A stretch of DNA of 64,000 nucleotides from an uncultured Bacteroidales bacterium (GTDB lineage Bacteria; Bacteroidota; Bacteroidia; Bacteroidales; CAIWKO01): positions 1-64,000 of the forward strand of contig CAIWKO010000009.1 in NCBI GenBank assembly GCA_903913285.1. The letters are read 5' to 3'. Each line of letters starts with the position of its first letter. Position 1 is the first letter of the stretch. The notes beneath the pieces are model-generated. The model worked only from the letters and a program-made list of their open reading frames with translations. It searched no databases and was not told the origin of the DNA. Positions 2,216 to 35,990 of this stretch are shown here, piece after piece. The position numbers and the translations under genes are program-made.

Positions 2216-2359
2216 AGTATTCTCAGGAAAGTTTGTTGCGATCTTTTACTTTATTAACTATTATTAATTGTGCTCTAGTTGTATTGAGGAAACAATTTTT
2301 TATTTTGTTCGTTATTGATTATGAGTAGCAAAAAAGTAATATAATTGGTCTACTTTGGG

Positions 2360-2929
2360 ATGGAAGATATTGAATTAGTTGAAAGGATTATTAATGGAGA
2401 TCATCAGGCCTTTAAGTCGTTTACTGACTTATATGCTGAAATGGTTTTTCGTGTATGCTTTAGTTTTGTGAATCACCGACAAAATGCGGAAGATTTAAGT
2501 CAGGACGTGTTTATTGAGGTTTATAATACCATTGCACGGTTTAAAAAAGAATCGCATATAAAGACATGGCTATTCAGAATTGCCATCAACAAATCTTTGA
2601 ATTATATCCGAAAGAAAAAACAGAATCAATGGCTGATCAATATTGGATTGCTTTCTAACTCTGCTGAGGAAAAGGAATCTGTTTATAAAGATATACCCGA
2701 AGCAAGTGCAGAAACAAATTACATTAATAATGAGCAGAAAACCATTTTGTACGAAACGATAGCAAGACTTCCGAAAAACCAAAGAATTGCTTTTACCTTG
2801 AATAAAATAGATGAACTGTCGTATAAAGAAATTTCAGAAATTATGGGGATATCGGTTTCATCCGTGGAATCCTTGATACATAGAGCCAAGAATGGGCTTC
2901 AAACGAAACTTTTTAAAGTTTTTAAATAA
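2360..2929 (+). CDS. ECF-type RNA polymerase sigma factor, 189 aa
   Basis: This is a sigma-70 family extracytoplasmic-function factor. Region 2 is visible as NAEDLSQDVFIEVYNTIARF...IKTWLFRIAINKSLNYIRKKK. Region 4 is visible as LPKNQRIAFTLNKIDELSYKEISEIMGISVSSVESLIHRAK. The length is normal for the family. The ATG at 2360 is preferred to a TTG at 2345 because typical ECF proteins begin just before an acidic ELVERI-type helix. The next gene encodes a zinc-finger anti-sigma factor, and the operon continues with metal-sensor-like proteins. I infer an envelope or metal stress regulon controlled by this factor. Confidence 0.9.
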   Translation: MEDIELVERIINGDHQAFKSFTDLYAEMVFRVCFSFVNHRQNAEDLSQDVFIEVYNTIARFKKESHIKTWLFRIAINKSLNYIRKKKQNQWLINIGLLSNSAEEKESVYKDIPEASAETNYINNEQKTILYETIARLPKNQRIAFTLNKIDELSYKEISEIMGISVSSVESLIHRAKNGLQTKLFKVFK

Positions 2930-2991
2930 AAATTTTATTCGTACCGCAAGTTTTTGATAAAAAAAGTGTCAAACAGATAAGTTGTTTTATT

Positions 2992-3450
2992 ATGGAATGC
3001 CAAAAAGTTCAAAACCAATTTGCAGATTTCTTTTATAAAGATATTGGAAATGATGTTCGCCAGGAAGTAGCGCAACATTTGAATAATTGTACTAACTGTG
3101 CAACTTTGTATGGCAATTTTTCGAAAGTGCTATCTTCAACAGACACTATTAAAGAGAATCGTCTGGATGCATTCTTCAGTGCGCGATTAATGGCGAAAAT
3201 CGAAAATAAAAGAACGGAATCGGGCAATATTGTTTTTTTAAAAAAAGTTTTGCAACCCATGTGGTTGGTTTCTATGGCTGCGCTGGGTATTTTTATCGGG
3301 GTTAAGATCAGCAACAAACTACCTGCAACAAATTTAACTGTGGAAAACGATAAAAGTAAAATAACTATTACTCAACTAGCAAGCGAGTATTATATGAATA
3401 ACTCAAATGAGGATATTGTTGAAAATTATTATTTAACCGATAAAAAATAA
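2992..3450 (+). CDS. Zinc-finger (ZAS/zf-HC2) anti-sigma factor, 152 aa
   Basis: The N-terminal region contains an early Cys (MEC) and the HLNNCTNC motif (H-x3-C-x2-C, residues about 29-36) typical of zinc-binding anti-sigma domains. A single membrane helix follows at about residues 84-105 (WLVSMAALGIFIGVKI), and a short extracytoplasmic tail of about 45 residues ends the protein. It should bind and inhibit the sigma factor encoded 62 bases upstream. The gene ends only 3 bases before the next one, which encodes a membrane-anchored CnrX/Spy-like protein. The pair resembles, in layout, the anti-sigma plus metal-sensor pairs (CnrY/CnrX) of Cupriavidus. Confidence 0.85.
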   Translation: MECQKVQNQFADFFYKDIGNDVRQEVAQHLNNCTNCATLYGNFSKVLSSTDTIKENRLDAFFSARLMAKIENKRTESGNIVFLKKVLQPMWLVSMAALGIFIGVKISNKLPATNLTVENDKSKITITQLASEYYMNNSNEDIVENYYLTDKK

Positions 3451-30347: not shown

Positions 30348-30852
30348 TTTTATCCGGACACATCATTTTATCCTTTATAGATATAATGTTGCGGGACTAG
30401 TTTCAGGTTCCTGTTAGGTTTATTCTTATTCAATTTTTTTGGTTTTAAATCTTTGATTGGTTATTTTTTGAGTTTAGCCGATTTGTAACTATTTTCATGC
30501 GCTATTGGTGAAATTATTTCACTCTATCTGTATATCAGGCAGTGTTATTATTATTGTTTATAAATATAATATTGAAACCATGTCTGTTGATCGATAATTT
30601 TTATAATTTTGTTACTGTTTTTAGTATAATATTGAGAAAACAGAACAATGTTCATCAGGAATACGTTAGAAAACACAAAAAATATTATAGGCTAAAGAAC
30701 CTGATTTTTAGGCATGCAGAATAATTATCGTAGACGAAAAGTCTTCATTAACAGAGAAATAAATAAAATACTCATTTTTTCCCTAAAAAAAATTGAAAAT
30801 TGATACCAAGTTTTTTTCATAATTTTTCGTTTAGTAATATAAAGTCGATTAA
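30348..30852. other. 505-base AT-rich intergenic region without a recognised gene
   Basis: No coding frame, RNA gene or strong hairpin was recognised between the Fe-S protein gene and the ECF sigma factor. A TAATTTTG element at 30604-30611 could be a promoter, but it would leave a leader of about 240 bases. The distance is unusual for this window, so leader regulation or a small RNA cannot be excluded. Confidence 0.4.
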
Positions 30853-31422
30853 ATGAATCCGGGCAACGAATTGAAGGATCTGGTAAGACTATGCAGAGAA
30901 AACAATTCAACTGCTCAGGAAAAGTTGTATAAATCGTTTTACGGAGTTATGATGAATGTTTGTTTGAGATACGCTAAGAACCCTGAGGATGCTGTAGAAA
31001 TATTAAATACAGGGTTTTTGAAAGTATTCCAAAATATCGATAAATATGTGGGTGAAGGAGAGCAGTTATTTTCGTGGATACGCAAAATAATGGTGAATAC
31101 TGCTTTGGATAAAATAAGGTTTGAAAAGAACCGTTATTCGAACACGGTTCCTCTCAACATTAACAACGATGCAAATTATATAGAGAATGACGCCCTGAGC
31201 CATTTTGGCGAGGAAGATCTGATCCGTATGATACAATGTCTTCCGCCGTCAAGCAGAACAGTTTTCAATATGTATGTTTTTGAGGATTACAGCCACAAAG
31301 AAATTGCAGAAGCACTAAATATGACCGTGAGCACATCACAATGGCATTTGTTGAATGCCCGCAGAATATTAATGAAACAAATTACTAACATAAACCATAA
31401 GGAGTCAGTAATAAATGGATAA
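30853..31422 (+). CDS. ECF-type RNA polymerase sigma factor, 189 aa
   Basis: Sigma region 2 is visible as NPEDAVEILNTGFLKVFQNIDKYVGEGEQLFSWIRKIMVNTALDKIRFEK. Region 4 is visible as LPPSSRTVFNMYVFEDYSHKEIAEALNMTVSTSQWHLLNARRILMKQI. The length is normal. It overlaps the next gene by 8 bases. That gene has an N-terminal motif like those of Bacteroidota membrane anti-sigma factors, so this factor is probably controlled by its neighbour. It is only a distant relative of the sigma factor at 2360. Confidence 0.9.
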   Translation: MNPGNELKDLVRLCRENNSTAQEKLYKSFYGVMMNVCLRYAKNPEDAVEILNTGFLKVFQNIDKYVGEGEQLFSWIRKIMVNTALDKIRFEKNRYSNTVPLNINNDANYIENDALSHFGEEDLIRMIQCLPPSSRTVFNMYVFEDYSHKEIAEALNMTVSTSQWHLLNARRILMKQITNINHKESVING

Positions 31423-33184
31423 AAAATATCTCATCGACGACTTATTCAAGTCAAAACTCGATGGTTACAGCCCCGAATATGTTCCTGAGCACTGGCAGAT
31501 GATGAAATCGGCTCTGGAAAGCAGCAGCAAAACCGGCCTGAAAAGTTCAGGCAACACTGTGACGAATGTCCTGCTGATAGTTTCTGCTATTATTATAGTG
31601 TGTACCGGATTTTATGCCTATACATTATCTGAAAAACTACGTACCCAGTACGATAAAAATCAAAATATCTCCCTTTGTCAGAATATTGACCATCAGACTG
31701 CTTCTTCTATTGATAAGAATAGAGTAACTGTAAATGATAATCCTACTTCACAGACTGTTCAACAAAATGATACAAAAAAATTGAACGCTGTCAATTCTGT
31801 TAAACAAAATGCAAACAGATCAAACTCGGCTATTGAAAAGAAAAATTTCGTTAATGGCGAAAAGAAAACAAACAATACCAGTGAAAAGAAAAATACCAAG
31901 AATAGTTTAGCTCAGAACAAGGACAAAGACCTGAAAACAAGCAATACTAAAGCAGGTTCAGCAGTAAAAACCGATCAAAACTTTAATTCATCGGTTAAAA
32001 CTCAAATAGAAAATGATAACGTCCAGAAAAGTAATACAACAATTGCTGTTATTAATAATGAGAATAAAGTAACTGATGCTGATAACTCTGTAAATGAAAA
32101 CAAAAACCAGACGCATAATGATGTAACTATTGCCATTAAAAGAACTGATGGATTAAGCGAAGCGGAACTCGGATTGGTACCGACGGAAAATGAGAACTAT
32201 AGTTCGGTTACGGACGATTATTTTGCAAAAAAACAGCAGTTGGATGCAAGACATATGCGTAAAGCCGAAAATAAAGCAAAAAATGCTGCAGCTATCAAAA
32301 AAGCCAATATGGAAACGGCTCCCGACTTTAAAGTTAGTGTTGTAAATAATATTGTTTCGAATCCTGCTTTTTCAGGATTTAATCAACATCACACAATAGA
32401 GATTTCCACACTCGTTCATAAGCCTACCTATAAGCCTGCTTCCGATTTCACCGTACCGTTCGAATATGGTATTACTTACGATTTTAATTTTGGTAAGAAA
32501 AATAATTACGGATTGGGAATAAATTACAAAAGGTTTGTTGGTGGTGCTGAAGGGTCGCTGGATGTCGATCTGACGTTTGCATATCGTTTCCGTTTGGCAA
32601 AAGATCATAACTTGCGTGTAGGTGTTTCGGCAACCTATTTCTCGAGCGGTGTGAACTTCAGCGATATGACTTTCCCCGATATGATCGATTCGAAGAACGG
32701 ATATGTTTATAATACTAACGAAAACCAACCTGCCAAGAGTACAAAAAGTAATTTTGACATGGGTTTGGGTCTGTGGTATACCTGGAAAACATTATACGTT
32801 GGTATATCAGGTGTTCATCTGACCAGCCCGAATGTTGGAATGATTAGTGTCTCGAGAATTCCACGTGAATACACTCTTTCTTCAGGTTATTCATTTAAAT
32901 TGAATAAGAATATGGATATGCTTCCGGCATTTGAGATGAACTATGATGAACATACCTTTAATTTTACACCCGATATGTTGTTTGCTTATCATAAGCGCTT
33001 CCTTTTTGGAGTGGAATTTCAAAATCTGAAAACAGCCGGTTTGATATTAGGTTGCAATCTGAATGATAGTTTTATTTTGAACTTGCATGGCGGTGTCCCG
33101 ATGAGCAAAAACCTGATCGATAATTTCGGAATAATTGACTATGCAGGACTTAGTCTGCGTTTTCAATTCGGGGAAACCCGCTAA
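31415..33184 (+). CDS. Fusion of a membrane anti-sigma-like N-terminus with a PorP/SprF-like barrel, 589 aa
   Basis: Residues 1-35 (IDDLFKSKLDGYSPEYVPEHWQMMKSAL) resemble the short cytoplasmic helix pair of Bacteroidota anti-sigma-like proteins. A single membrane helix follows at about 50-70 (NVLLIVSAIIIVCTGFYAY). Residues 80-300 form an Asn/Lys/Ser/Thr-rich linker. The last 280 residues start with NIVSNPAFSGFNQHH, like the NPA-x-AG motif of PorP/SprF. Barrel strands follow (GLGINYKRFVGG, LWYTWKTLYVGISGVHLTSP, GVEFQNLKTAGLILG), ending in SLRFQFGETR. The one chain would run from cytoplasm to outer membrane. It overlaps the sigma gene and precedes a type B T9SS cargo gene. Confidence 0.7.
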   Translation: MDKKYLIDDLFKSKLDGYSPEYVPEHWQMMKSALESSSKTGLKSSGNTVTNVLLIVSAIIIVCTGFYAYTLSEKLRTQYDKNQNISLCQNIDHQTASSIDKNRVTVNDNPTSQTVQQNDTKKLNAVNSVKQNANRSNSAIEKKNFVNGEKKTNNTSEKKNTKNSLAQNKDKDLKTSNTKAGSAVKTDQNFNSSVKTQIENDNVQKSNTTIAVINNENKVTDADNSVNENKNQTHNDVTIAIKRTDGLSEAELGLVPTENENYSSVTDDYFAKKQQLDARHMRKAENKAKNAAAIKKANMETAPDFKVSVVNNIVSNPAFSGFNQHHTIEISTLVHKPTYKPASDFTVPFEYGITYDFNFGKKNNYGLGINYKRFVGGAEGSLDVDLTFAYRFRLAKDHNLRVGVSATYFSSGVNFSDMTFPDMIDSKNGYVYNTNENQPAKSTKSNFDMGLGLWYTWKTLYVGISGVHLTSPNVGMISVSRIPREYTLSSGYSFKLNKNMDMLPAFEMNYDEHTFNFTPDMLFAYHKRFLFGVEFQNLKTAGLILGCNLNDSFILNLHGGVPMSKNLIDNFGIIDYAGLSLRFQFGETR

Positions 33185-33193
33185 AAGCTTTTT

Positions 33194-33784
33194 ATGAAAC
33201 GCACTATCGTATTTTTGTTTCCGGTTTTATTGCTTTTAGGATACTCATGTAAGAAACAAGAAGATCCATCTACCAAAACTCTTTACGATACGTTGAAGGT
33301 TAACACAACCTATACAGAATTTGCACTAAGTGAAAATACTATTCTGACCTTAGATGCAACAAACTCTCAGGCCACAAGTTATTTATGGAGTCCCAGTGGT
33401 GATACACTGCCCATGATTACGGTTTCAGCTGAAGGTAATTATACCGTTCAGGTAAAAACACATACGGGCATCCTGAATTTTCAGGTTATTATCTTTTATA
33501 ACGGAAGCGATTGCTATATACCCAACTCCTTTTCGCCAAACGGAGATAATAAGAATGATTATTGGCAGCCTTTTTTTACAGGGGTTAGTTCTGAAAACTA
33601 TAACTTAAAGATCTACGATCAGAATAATACAAAACTATTTTCTACCACTGATAATACAGCCCATTGGGATGGGAAATATAATGGTCAGGAAATGCCTGCC
33701 GGATATTATTATTATACCATTTCGTATCAAACCCTATCTGGTGAATCGAAAAACCGGAACGGGATGCTGCAGTTATACAGATAA
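33194..33784 (+). CDS. Lipoprotein with T9SS type B (gliding-motility, CHU_C) C-terminal domain, 196 aa
   Basis: A lipoprotein signal (FLFPVLLLLGYSC, then KKQEDP) is followed by an Ig/PKD-like stretch (LTLDATNSQATSYLWSPSGDTLPMITVSAEGNYTVQV). The final 90 residues are a type B domain: CYIPNSFSPNGDNKNDYWQPFF, NLKIYDQNNTKLF, HWDGKYNGQEMPAGYYYYTISY. Type B domains in other Bacteroidota need a PorP/SprF-type partner for export, and such a barrel gene lies 9 bases upstream. A lipidated type B protein is somewhat odd, since the cargo would carry both a lipid anchor and a secretion domain. Confidence 0.85.
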   Translation: MKRTIVFLFPVLLLLGYSCKKQEDPSTKTLYDTLKVNTTYTEFALSENTILTLDATNSQATSYLWSPSGDTLPMITVSAEGNYTVQVKTHTGILNFQVIIFYNGSDCYIPNSFSPNGDNKNDYWQPFFTGVSSENYNLKIYDQNNTKLFSTTDNTAHWDGKYNGQEMPAGYYYYTISYQTLSGESKNRNGMLQLYR

Positions 33785-33806: not shown

Positions 33807-35990
33807 CTAATATTTGATTAGTTTTTGTATCGATCTTTTATCGTTATCGGTCATCTCAACAAAATAAACTCCTGATTGCAAACTATGGATATCGATCGTG
33901 TTCAAACTATTTTTTGTGCATGATATAATGAGTTCCCCCATCGTGTTGAAAATATTAATTTGCTGAGGAGCAATATTTGATTCTCCGATAATATTAAAGA
34001 AATCGTGTGCAGGGTTCGGATAAATTGAAAACTCAGATGGAGAATTATATTCATGTATACCTGTAACTGCCATTTTTACTGCTTTCCATGCATTTATTTT
34101 CCCCCATCCCCAACGATAACTTCCAGTGTCAGGAATTACACCTGTTTGAACATCTGTACGTGCGGTGAGTTTAATAATATTTTTTATTTGAGCAGGAGTG
34201 AGAGCAGGATCAGCCTGCAGCATTAAGGCTACAATACCGGTAACCATAGGCGATGACATGGATGTACCTGATAGAGGGTAAAATTTATACGTTCTGCCTC
34301 CAAAGTCAACACTGGTAACCATTCCGCTTAAAGTTTGATTTGTGAATGATGATACTGATGAAATAACATTTTGCCCGGGTGCAGAAATGTCAGGTTTTAA
34401 CCGTCCGTCATAGGTAGGCCCAAAGCTTGAAAAAGTAGCAATAGCTCCTCCCACAACCGAACCGCTCGTGAGAACTATCTCTGAGTTATGAGCTGCCACG
34501 CTTATCACACTGTTTGTGCAGGCAGGTTCGCCTACACCGCAATAATGATCTCCGGCTTGCCATCCTGTAGTAGGTGCAATAAAGGCAGAACCCCAATTGC
34601 CGACATTATTCGTTAATTCAATCACATCCCAACAATTAACTGTTGCAGCAGTCCCGTTTGCAAATATGGCGATTTTGTATGTTGAGGTATTCAGGTTTTT
34701 GATACGGATGCGCATGTGTGGTCTGTTATTCATCGGATTTGCAGAATCAGAACTCAGGTTATAGAAAACGGTATCCGCACCGATTATCAATTGGCCTTCC
34801 GAATACGAGGCCGTATCGTTTGTAGAATAAACAGGTGAACTAGTCAGAATTACATTTGAGGTGTTCATTACTTGTAATGAAACACTAAAACTATTGCCGG
34901 GCTCACCCCACATAGTAACCGACTGTCCCCACATGGTAGGGTAATAGGTATAATTATCAAAACCAACAACTGTTTTTAAGGTATCTGTGGCTGATAAGAA
35001 AGTATGGTTTAAATGAAAGTTCACATTCCCGTTATTTCCGGCACTGGCAACAAAAACCACACCTTGTGATGATAACTGATCAATAGCCTGACTTATTAAA
35101 GATGTCCCATCCAGATTGCCTGCCCAGTATAATCCCCAGCTTTGATTTATAACCAGTCGTTTTCCAACGCTTTGTGCATAATCGTTCATCCAGTTGTAGG
35201 CATCTATTACAGCCGCTTCATCAACCAAAAAGGTAGCCATCAGATACTGCGCTTCAAATGCCACACCCCTATAAATGGTGCCGGCACCACTGCCACCACA
35301 AATACCTGCAACGTGCGATGCGTGATAAGCATATTCGTAAATATTAAAAGTATCGCATTGTGCAGCCAGCAGGTCTGTTTCGCCGTTTATTTCAGTTCCA
35401 TAACTAAATCCGCTTGGTGGTGGTCCTGCATTGCGGTATTGATCCCAGGCTTTAATTATTCTAGTGTGTGTGAGCGTTGTATCATAAAACATGGGATTGG
35501 TGTAATCAAATCCCCAATCGGTGATACCAATTAAAACATTCTTCCCGGTAAAAGACTGAGGAAGGTCAATTCCTTTCCAGACACTGTCGACACGGGTATC
35601 TTTTACTGCCCGATTGAGGTCAGGGTTTATTTTTCCGGCGATTTCAATATAGTCAATACCCTGAAGGGAAGCGATCATATTAAAGTTTTGTATCGGAATA
35701 CGTAGAGTGACAATTTTCGCTGTTTGCGACCCCATAAGAATCCCTGCAGAAGTCAGGCATGACGAATTGAATTTGCTATTAACGCGAGCCAGACAGGAGA
35801 CATAATAGTTCCCGTTAAATTTATTGACAGGATATTTTGCACAAAGTTCATTACTGGTATAACACTTGTTTTTTGCAAACTCTTTATTCAGGTCATGCAT
35901 AAAAAGTTTTGTATCGCATGATATTTTTGTTTGTGCAAACAAACTAATACTTAAAAACATTATTACTAGAGAAAGAAAACTCTTTTTCAT
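33807..35990 (-). CDS. Secreted S8 (subtilisin-like) serine peptidase with T9SS type A domain, 727 aa
   Basis: A signal peptide (FLSLVIMFLSISLFAQ) and a propeptide of about 110 residues precede the catalytic domain. The triad is Asp158 (GITDWG), His226 (HASHVAG) and Ser577 (SGTSMSSP); the oxyanion Asn is in SAGNN near 320. A beta-rich insertion of about 180 residues lies between the Asn and the Ser. The C-terminal 75 residues (FSIYPNPAHDFFNII...GELI...SLQSGVYFVEMTD...KLIKY) are a type A sorting domain. It should be a secreted or surface-attached protease for protein degradation. It converges on the type B lipoprotein gene, with 22 bases between the stop codons. Confidence 0.93.
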   Translation of the reverse strand: MKKSFLSLVIMFLSISLFAQTKISCDTKLFMHDLNKEFAKNKCYTSNELCAKYPVNKFNGNYYVSCLARVNSKFNSSCLTSAGILMGSQTAKIVTLRIPIQNFNMIASLQGIDYIEIAGKINPDLNRAVKDTRVDSVWKGIDLPQSFTGKNVLIGITDWGFDYTNPMFYDTTLTHTRIIKAWDQYRNAGPPPSGFSYGTEINGETDLLAAQCDTFNIYEYAYHASHVAGICGGSGAGTIYRGVAFEAQYLMATFLVDEAAVIDAYNWMNDYAQSVGKRLVINQSWGLYWAGNLDGTSLISQAIDQLSSQGVVFVASAGNNGNVNFHLNHTFLSATDTLKTVVGFDNYTYYPTMWGQSVTMWGEPGNSFSVSLQVMNTSNVILTSSPVYSTNDTASYSEGQLIIGADTVFYNLSSDSANPMNNRPHMRIRIKNLNTSTYKIAIFANGTAATVNCWDVIELTNNVGNWGSAFIAPTTGWQAGDHYCGVGEPACTNSVISVAAHNSEIVLTSGSVVGGAIATFSSFGPTYDGRLKPDISAPGQNVISSVSSFTNQTLSGMVTSVDFGGRTYKFYPLSGTSMSSPMVTGIVALMLQADPALTPAQIKNIIKLTARTDVQTGVIPDTGSYRWGWGKINAWKAVKMAVTGIHEYNSPSEFSIYPNPAHDFFNIIGESNIAPQQINIFNTMGELIISCTKNSLNTIDIHSLQSGVYFVEMTDNDKRSIQKLIKY

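Follow-up and report, generated by a model that had tools for sequence, protein, structure and literature searches.

A putative anti-sigma factor ending in a PorP/SprF barrel, encoded between a sigma factor and a type B sorting-domain protein in an uncultured Bacteroidales bacterium

A stretch of 64,000 nucleotides from an uncultured Bacteroidales bacterium (GenBank assembly GCA_903913285.1, contig CAIWKO010000009.1, positions 1 to 64,000; hereafter the window) was found to carry one operon, read in one direction, which encodes an extracytoplasmic function (ECF) sigma factor, a fusion protein of 589 amino acids and a lipoprotein-like protein that carries a type IX secretion system (T9SS) sorting domain of type B. 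In the fusion protein an anti-sigma-like N-terminus, one predicted transmembrane (TM) helix and a long low-complexity linker precede an outer-membrane barrel of the PorP/SprF type. Judged from its sequence, the fusion is a putative anti-sigma factor, an assignment in which we have high confidence, and we regard the further reading that it senses the T9SS as about evenly poised.

Organization of the operon and of the fusion protein

The three genes and the parts of the fusion protein are located in the window as follows:

30853-31422, forward strand: ECF sigma factor, 189 amino acids (open reading frame (ORF) list, Sigma70_r2/r4, TIGR02937)
31415-33184, forward strand: fusion protein, 589 amino acids, with anti-sigma-like N-terminus, TM helix, linker and PorP/SprF barrel (ORF, profiles, hydropathy, alignments)
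31415-31534, forward strand: N-terminal anti-sigma-like region, residues 1-40, with W27 (25 of 40 positions invariant in three orthologs; alignment with sigma-linked N-termini)
31556-31618, forward strand: predicted single TM helix, about residues 48-68 (hydropathy peak 2.25)
31631-32314, forward strand: low-complexity linker, residues 73-300 (29 of 228 positions invariant; N 17%, K 13%)
32315-33181, forward strand: PorP/SprF-type outer-membrane barrel, residues 301-589 (PF11751 at 310-556, TIGR03519 at 301-564)
33194-33784, forward strand: lipoprotein-like protein, 196 amino acids, whose C-terminal part, at about 33518-33775, is a T9SS sorting domain of type B (profiles)

A first-pass annotation of the window, made by a model from the sequence alone, had proposed this gene set, with an overlap of 8 bases between the end of the sigma ORF and the start of the fusion ORF and with 9 bases between the fusion stop codon and the third ORF, and all of this was confirmed by ORF coordinates and profile scores. 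The sigma protein matches Sigma70_r2/r4 and TIGR02937 (82.4 bits, cut-off 42.9). Both the PorP/SprF barrel and the type B domain of the third gene, likewise named in that annotation, pass curated cut-offs: the barrel reaches 96.7 bits with PF11751 PorP_SprF (cut-off 22.3) and 107 bits with TIGR03519 (cut-off 90.55), the third-gene product 58.3 bits with PF13585 CHU_C (cut-off 27) and 61.1 bits with TIGR04131 (cut-off 35). In the latter protein Cys19 is situated behind a hydrophobic leader and followed by KK, with a loose lipobox GYSC that was read by eye from the sequence.

Members of the PorP/SprF family typically consist of a stand-alone barrel behind a short N-terminal leader. The fusion departs from this plan in that roughly 300 residues and a TM anchor are placed ahead of the barrel, while the other six PorP genes of the same genome have open frames of 330-356 amino acids. 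By its profile matches the barrel is assigned to the PorP/SprF family, of which the protein as a whole is no ordinary representative. Hydropathy displays a single peak from residue 48 (Kyte-Doolittle value 2.25) and no other above 1.6. The linker, which had been put at about 220 low-complexity residues after an inner-membrane helix, proved to be 228 amino acids long and rich in asparagine (17%) and lysine (13%); its disorder was judged from this composition together with low conservation.

Conservation of the N-terminus and sigma-linked relatives

The gene set of the operon is present in two further genomes of the same genus, whose fusion proteins show identities of 63-64% and 45-47%. In one of them (G002) the 5' part of the sigma gene lies inside an assembly gap of Ns, leaving the last 29 codons as the matched portion; a loss of the sigma gene was rejected here, the absent part being an N-run in the assembly. 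In a third same-genus genome (G003), which is 81% complete, the fusion had no match. Invariant positions among the three orthologs amount to 25/40 in residues 1-40, 6/32 in residues 41-72, 29/228 in the linker and 156/289 in the barrel. Such a conserved N-terminal block in front of a variable TM stretch and linker is the pattern to be expected of a functional cytoplasmic domain and exceeds the needs of an anchor.

The search for the fusion in other Bacteroidota that had been suggested in the first-pass annotation led to the same-genus genomes and to none beyond the genus. A protein search of 59 genomes was combined with a contig search, and the latter gave two loci, both from the same genus; a profile search of 395 genomes of the phylum at E<=1e-20 retrieved the own genome only, at a stringency by which distant fusions would be overlooked. 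A sigma match occurred in none of 13 regions that were read around PorP frames from the protein search (L149-L159, L161 and L162, mostly chosen for long frames), and a search of plasmids gave no match.

The sigma factor of the window has matches at E<=1e-18 in 133 of 149 genomes of the order, the own genome included. From the top of this list 60 regions were fetched, in which 62 pairs of a sigma gene and its next gene were read, besides one further sigma gene without a next gene. An early TM segment (hydrophobic peak above 1.5 within 120 residues) was found in 60 of the 62 genes next to related sigmas. The set of relatives used for alignments comprises 59 proteins, L202 and L203 (cut by the contig end) and L237 (an ORF of 74 amino acids) having been dropped after the data had been seen. 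Residues 3-75 of the fusion, that is the N-terminus with the TM helix, align with the profile of these 59 relatives (probability 96.95%, E 1.3e-10), and residues 2-38 align with nine sigma-linked proteins ending in a type B domain, described below (probability 87.3%, E 3.8e-6). A tryptophan between residues 20 and 40 occurs in 54 of the 59, and W27 of the fusion is found at about the same place. At least 350 amino acids are reached by 50 of the relatives; the nine shorter ones may therefore be anti-sigma-like proteins without a barrel.

Because it aligns with both sets of proteins, the N-terminus appears to be more than a plain signal anchor, and the anti-sigma-like character ascribed to it in the first-pass annotation is supported by these profile alignments. 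The alternative is that it is a mere signal anchor and that an ordinary PorP/SprF barrel came to stand beside a sigma gene by chance. This would agree with the frequent pairing of PorP and type B genes (three of the seven PorP genes in the own genome adjoin a type B gene) and with the observation that the N-terminus lies outside every Pfam and NCBIfam match. The short frames of the six other PorP genes, homology to sigma-linked N-termini and a conservation higher than that of the TM stretch and linker are opposed to it, and we consider it very improbable.

In the own genome a sigma gene at L093:5060-7204 (contig C21) precedes a gene for a protein of 522 amino acids, which has a single TM segment close to the N-terminus and is matched by no model of Pfam or NCBIfam. 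The barrel of A4, a barrel-type paralog family of the own genome, aligns with the barrel of the 59 relatives (99.8%); a likeness between the barrels of A4 and the fusion was unconvincing (28% probability) and was discarded.

Type IX secretion domains in and around the operon

The own genome contains a SprA match of 2700 bits, 28 type B matches over the cut-off and 150 type A matches (150 scored out of 218 candidates). PorP/SprF proteins have been described as shuttles or anchors for type B cargo (PMC9143113, PMC12618676), and cognate shuttles often adjoin their type B gene (PMC12618676). Sorting domains also recur among the sigma-linked relatives: a type B domain (CHU_C) is located at the C-terminal end of 8 of the 59 proteins, and the third genes of sigma operons encode a type A domain (Por_Secre_tail) in 12 of 40 cases and CHU_C in 5 of 40, two counts that may overlap. 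In the own genome, L098:4809-6357 (contig C45) comprises a sigma gene and then a gene for a protein of 334 amino acids with an anti-sigma-like N-terminus, a TM helix and a C-terminal type B domain (81.7 bits). Nine such anti-sigma-like proteins with a type B end, encoded directly behind a sigma gene, were obtained from 8 genomes in 7 families; seven came from 20 regions and one from 14, these regions having been picked by eye, and one came from the own genome; in eight of the nine the type B domain rests on a profile that we built. At L248:1119-2429 a protein of this kind seems to be divided between two frames of 286 and 150 amino acids, and the third gene of this locus is probably the split-off C-terminal part of its next gene.

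Judging from the proteins that unite an anti-sigma-like N-terminus with a type B domain, the connection of these sigma systems with the T9SS may well reach beyond one genus. We tentatively propose, with rather less than even confidence, a Bacteroidota class of anti-sigma factors that would read the T9SS by way of a type B signal of their own, of cargo with a sorting signal encoded next door or, in this genus, of a type B shuttle barrel. If this is true, such proteins would allow the cell to gauge whether surface cargo arrives at its shuttle and to tune the transcription of cargo genes, which would amount to a direct wire from secretion at the outer membrane to RNA polymerase. A further locus of the own genome, L092:5892-9413 (contig C3), encodes a sigma factor, a TM protein of 507 amino acids with a barrel and no Pfam match, and a type A protein with SprB and PKD domains. 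Its sigma factor and TM protein recur in three genomes of the genus, and a GGCAACC...TGTT pattern was seen upstream in all three loci looked at.

It could also be assumed that the fusion serves two purposes, being an anti-sigma factor and at the same time a working shuttle that exports or anchors the type B protein, so that regulation would merely match the shuttle to cargo supply. A barrel over its curated family cut-off, encoded beside a single type B gene in the manner common among cognate shuttles (PMC12618676), is consistent with this idea, which we nevertheless rate as improbable.

Other genes in the vicinity deserve brief mention. A convergent gene for an S8 subtilase with a type A T9SS domain is situated downstream of the operon (window 33807-35990, reverse strand), and in L039 a 727-amino-acid S8 subtilase with a type A domain likewise follows the operon. 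Elsewhere in the window (2345-3450) a second ECF sigma gene precedes a gene for a protein of 152 amino acids. This protein has a hydrophobic segment and cysteines in a CxxC pattern and looks like an ordinary candidate for an anti-sigma factor.

Candidate promoter motif and regulon

Upstream of the sigma gene a promoter-like motif was recognized:

30805-30834, forward strand: candidate ECF promoter ACCAAGTT-N15-CGTTTAG, its end 19 bp ahead of the sigma start codon (same boxes in L038)

Both boxes and the spacing of 15 bases are kept upstream of the closest ortholog, that of L038, at the same distance of 19 bp, with differing flanks (alignment read by eye). At up to two mismatches 20 matches other than the motif's own sites were counted in the own genome (G000) and G001 together, 9 of them inside ORFs and 11 intergenic. 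A downstream ORF (at least 80 amino acids, within 250 bp) follows 10 of the 11 intergenic sites; the first genes behind these sites are three type B genes in G001, three type A genes in G000 and, in one further unit of G001 (L263), a gene for an exported protein of 161 amino acids that is followed by a type B gene, making it the seventh motif-led T9SS unit. The remaining three encode a universal stress protein, an adenosine deaminase and a protein that was judged by eye to be lipoprotein-like. These counts have to be read with the following in mind: the limit of 250 bp and the two-gene reading of L263 were chosen after the sites had been seen, the type B gene of L263 rests on our own profile (46.0 bits), and two of the G001 type B genes are tandem neighbours that perhaps should not be counted as independent; the product of one of the two scored 25.0 bits, below the CHU_C cut-off of 27.

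Exact matches, with T or G as last base, number 7 in four genomes (G000 2, G001 4, G002 0, G003 1), including the two source sites, with a chance expectation of about 0.02 per genome; T as last base was allowed only after the sites had been seen. The chance figures calculated alongside the real-DNA controls described below assume independent sites and a base rate of 7.5%, which is our own estimate (gene count about 3300). The same motif could be read by another ECF sigma factor. Universal stress protein genes with a promoter-like motif about 130 bp upstream were also observed in two same-genus genomes (L280:334-1200 and L288:6207-7073).

Proposed mechanism and alternative explanations

We propose that the fusion may act as a Dma-type anti-sigma factor (after Dma of Bacteroides thetaiotaomicron, see below) reaching from the cytoplasm to the outer membrane, the state of its barrel controlling the sigma factor and T9SS cargo genes; to this proposal we give an even chance. 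The N-terminal block would hold the sigma factor at the inner membrane, a binding that we infer from homology to sigma-linked N-termini, and the disordered linker would span the periplasm. Since PorP/SprF proteins are shuttles or anchors of type B proteins, the most likely partner of the outer-membrane barrel is the type B domain of the adjacent lipoprotein-like protein. A change in barrel state, be it cargo bound, cargo missing or a barrel left unassembled, would then free the sigma factor, and the released factor would transcribe the operon that encodes it together with a group of T9SS cargo genes; like the binding of cargo, the signal with its direction and the step of release are inferred. 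Some support for the T9SS part of this idea comes from the family of the barrel, from its type B neighbour and from the candidate regulon.

The fusion might instead be an anti-sigma factor of the Dma type that monitors the outer membrane in general. In this case a PorP barrel with no role in secretion would have taken the place of a generic one, and the type B gene would belong to an ordinary PorP/type B pair. Generic barrels indeed prevail over PorP in the relatives, as OMP_b-brl_2 was matched in 30 and OMP_b-brl in 14 of the 59 proteins and PorP_SprF in none (one protein may match several models), and the PorP barrel is the exception among the relatives sampled. Dma1 and Dma2 are linked to vesiculation and glycan loci, and the excerpted text of their description mentions neither 'PorP' nor 'type IX' (PMC13088901). 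In L196 and L201 the gene behind the sigma homolog encodes a barrel protein, and the third gene encodes a lipoprotein-like product that our own profile did not match as type B. T9SS domains, however, recur in the second or third genes of these operons, and motif sites precede cargo genes. We hold the general sensor to be less probable than not.

Several results weigh against the proposal of a T9SS-sensing anti-sigma factor. No PorP fusion was found outside the genus, and A4, the barrel-type paralog family of the own genome, showed no N-terminal alignment with the fusion. AlphaFold2 models of the full fusion and of the barrel alone (3 sequences each) were unusable, with a mean predicted local distance difference test (pLDDT) score of 31.8 and 29.3, respectively. 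Further points concern the motif. Compared with a reversed-pattern control it was not enriched at two mismatches (8 vs 21 in G000, 14 vs 23 in G001), and at one mismatch the counts in G000 to G003 were 5 vs 3, 4 vs 0, 0 vs 2 and 2 vs 3. In the own genome the sites with up to two mismatches lead into type A, not type B, cargo. In G003, where the operon was not found in an assembly that is 81% complete, one of two matches, the exact one, precedes a gene for a protein of 317 amino acids without a T9SS domain, and the other precedes a universal stress protein gene. A matrix scan of the own genome exceeded the shuffled 99% level in 4 of 24 regions upstream of type B genes and in 1 of 16 upstream of type A genes, and controls of real DNA exceeded it in 2/34 and 12/216, which renders the type B result borderline (p 0.19 against the first control, 0.06 against both, 0.04 when the operon's own locus is left out). 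The scan took 24 of 31 type B matches and 16 of 150 type A matches, leaving out the C19 region with its known site, whose inclusion changes the type A count to 2/17. The type B scan was, being borderline against real DNA, not used as support. With a motif not enriched over its control and a borderline scan, the regulon is consequently regarded as a lead.

A search of PDB sequences with the query A1 gave no match up to E 0.1.

Comparison with known systems

The layout of the fusion resembles that of Dma from B. thetaiotaomicron, which possesses an N-terminal anti-sigma domain, one TM helix, a long disordered tether and a C-terminal beta-barrel, as well as an adjacent sigma gene (PMC13088901). 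The sigma factors beside Dma proteins belong to the ECF21 group; the adjacent sigma factor is here ECF by profile. The fusion likewise has a predicted single TM helix, a long tether and a C-terminal barrel, the likeness being one of layout as taken from the published description. They differ in that the barrel is of the PorP/SprF type and the third gene a T9SS type B gene in the fusion operon, whereas neither 'PorP' nor 'type IX' occurs in the excerpted text on Dma2 (PMC13088901). A second parallel is the pair M0N98_03760/03761 of Phocaeicola vulgatus, whose anti-sigma factor is predicted to span the periplasm and to end in an outer-membrane barrel; its loss activates the sigma factor, and the EcfO pair is cited alongside (PMC9308784). 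Unlike the fusion, that pair is associated with toxin and envelope-stress response and with O-antigen length, and a link to the T9SS is not mentioned in the excerpts of that source (PMC9308784).

The first-pass annotation had known of no characterised example of such a protein. This holds for the PorP version, but the layout itself has been characterised as Dma (PMC13088901) and reported in Phocaeicola (PMC9308784), as far as the excerpted sources reach. In searches of open-licence PMC papers no description was found of an anti-sigma fusion with PorP/SprF or of a type B sorting domain on an anti-sigma factor. The four-part layout is known, and the PorP/SprF barrel and the T9SS company look new.

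With PorP/SprF shuttles and anchors the fusion shares the barrel family and the pairing with a type B gene, whereas an inner-membrane anti-sigma part is not mentioned for them in the excerpted sources (PMC9143113, PMC12618676). A connection between sigma factors and the T9SS has also been drawn in other ways. In Porphyromonas gingivalis the T9SS sorting-domain protein PorA acts upstream of PorXY-SigP, with an ECF sigma factor controlling T9SS genes, a route that, in contrast to the fusion, runs via a two-component system and, in the available excerpts, involves no fused barrel (PMC7712824). The SM6 promoters of Flavobacterium psychrophilum, which have an ECF-like motif, stand in front of T9SS genes and also of one gene pair for an ECF sigma factor and an anti-sigma factor; the T9SS genes listed encode components such as GldN and PorU instead of cargo, and the comparison is one of description, not of motif (PMC9723704). 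For Dma2 the sensed ligand was hypothesised to be an unknown glycan (PMC13088901). In the PorP/SprF fusion the published ligand class of the barrel family, type B domains, is met by a candidate ligand encoded next door, so that the question of what is sensed becomes directly testable.

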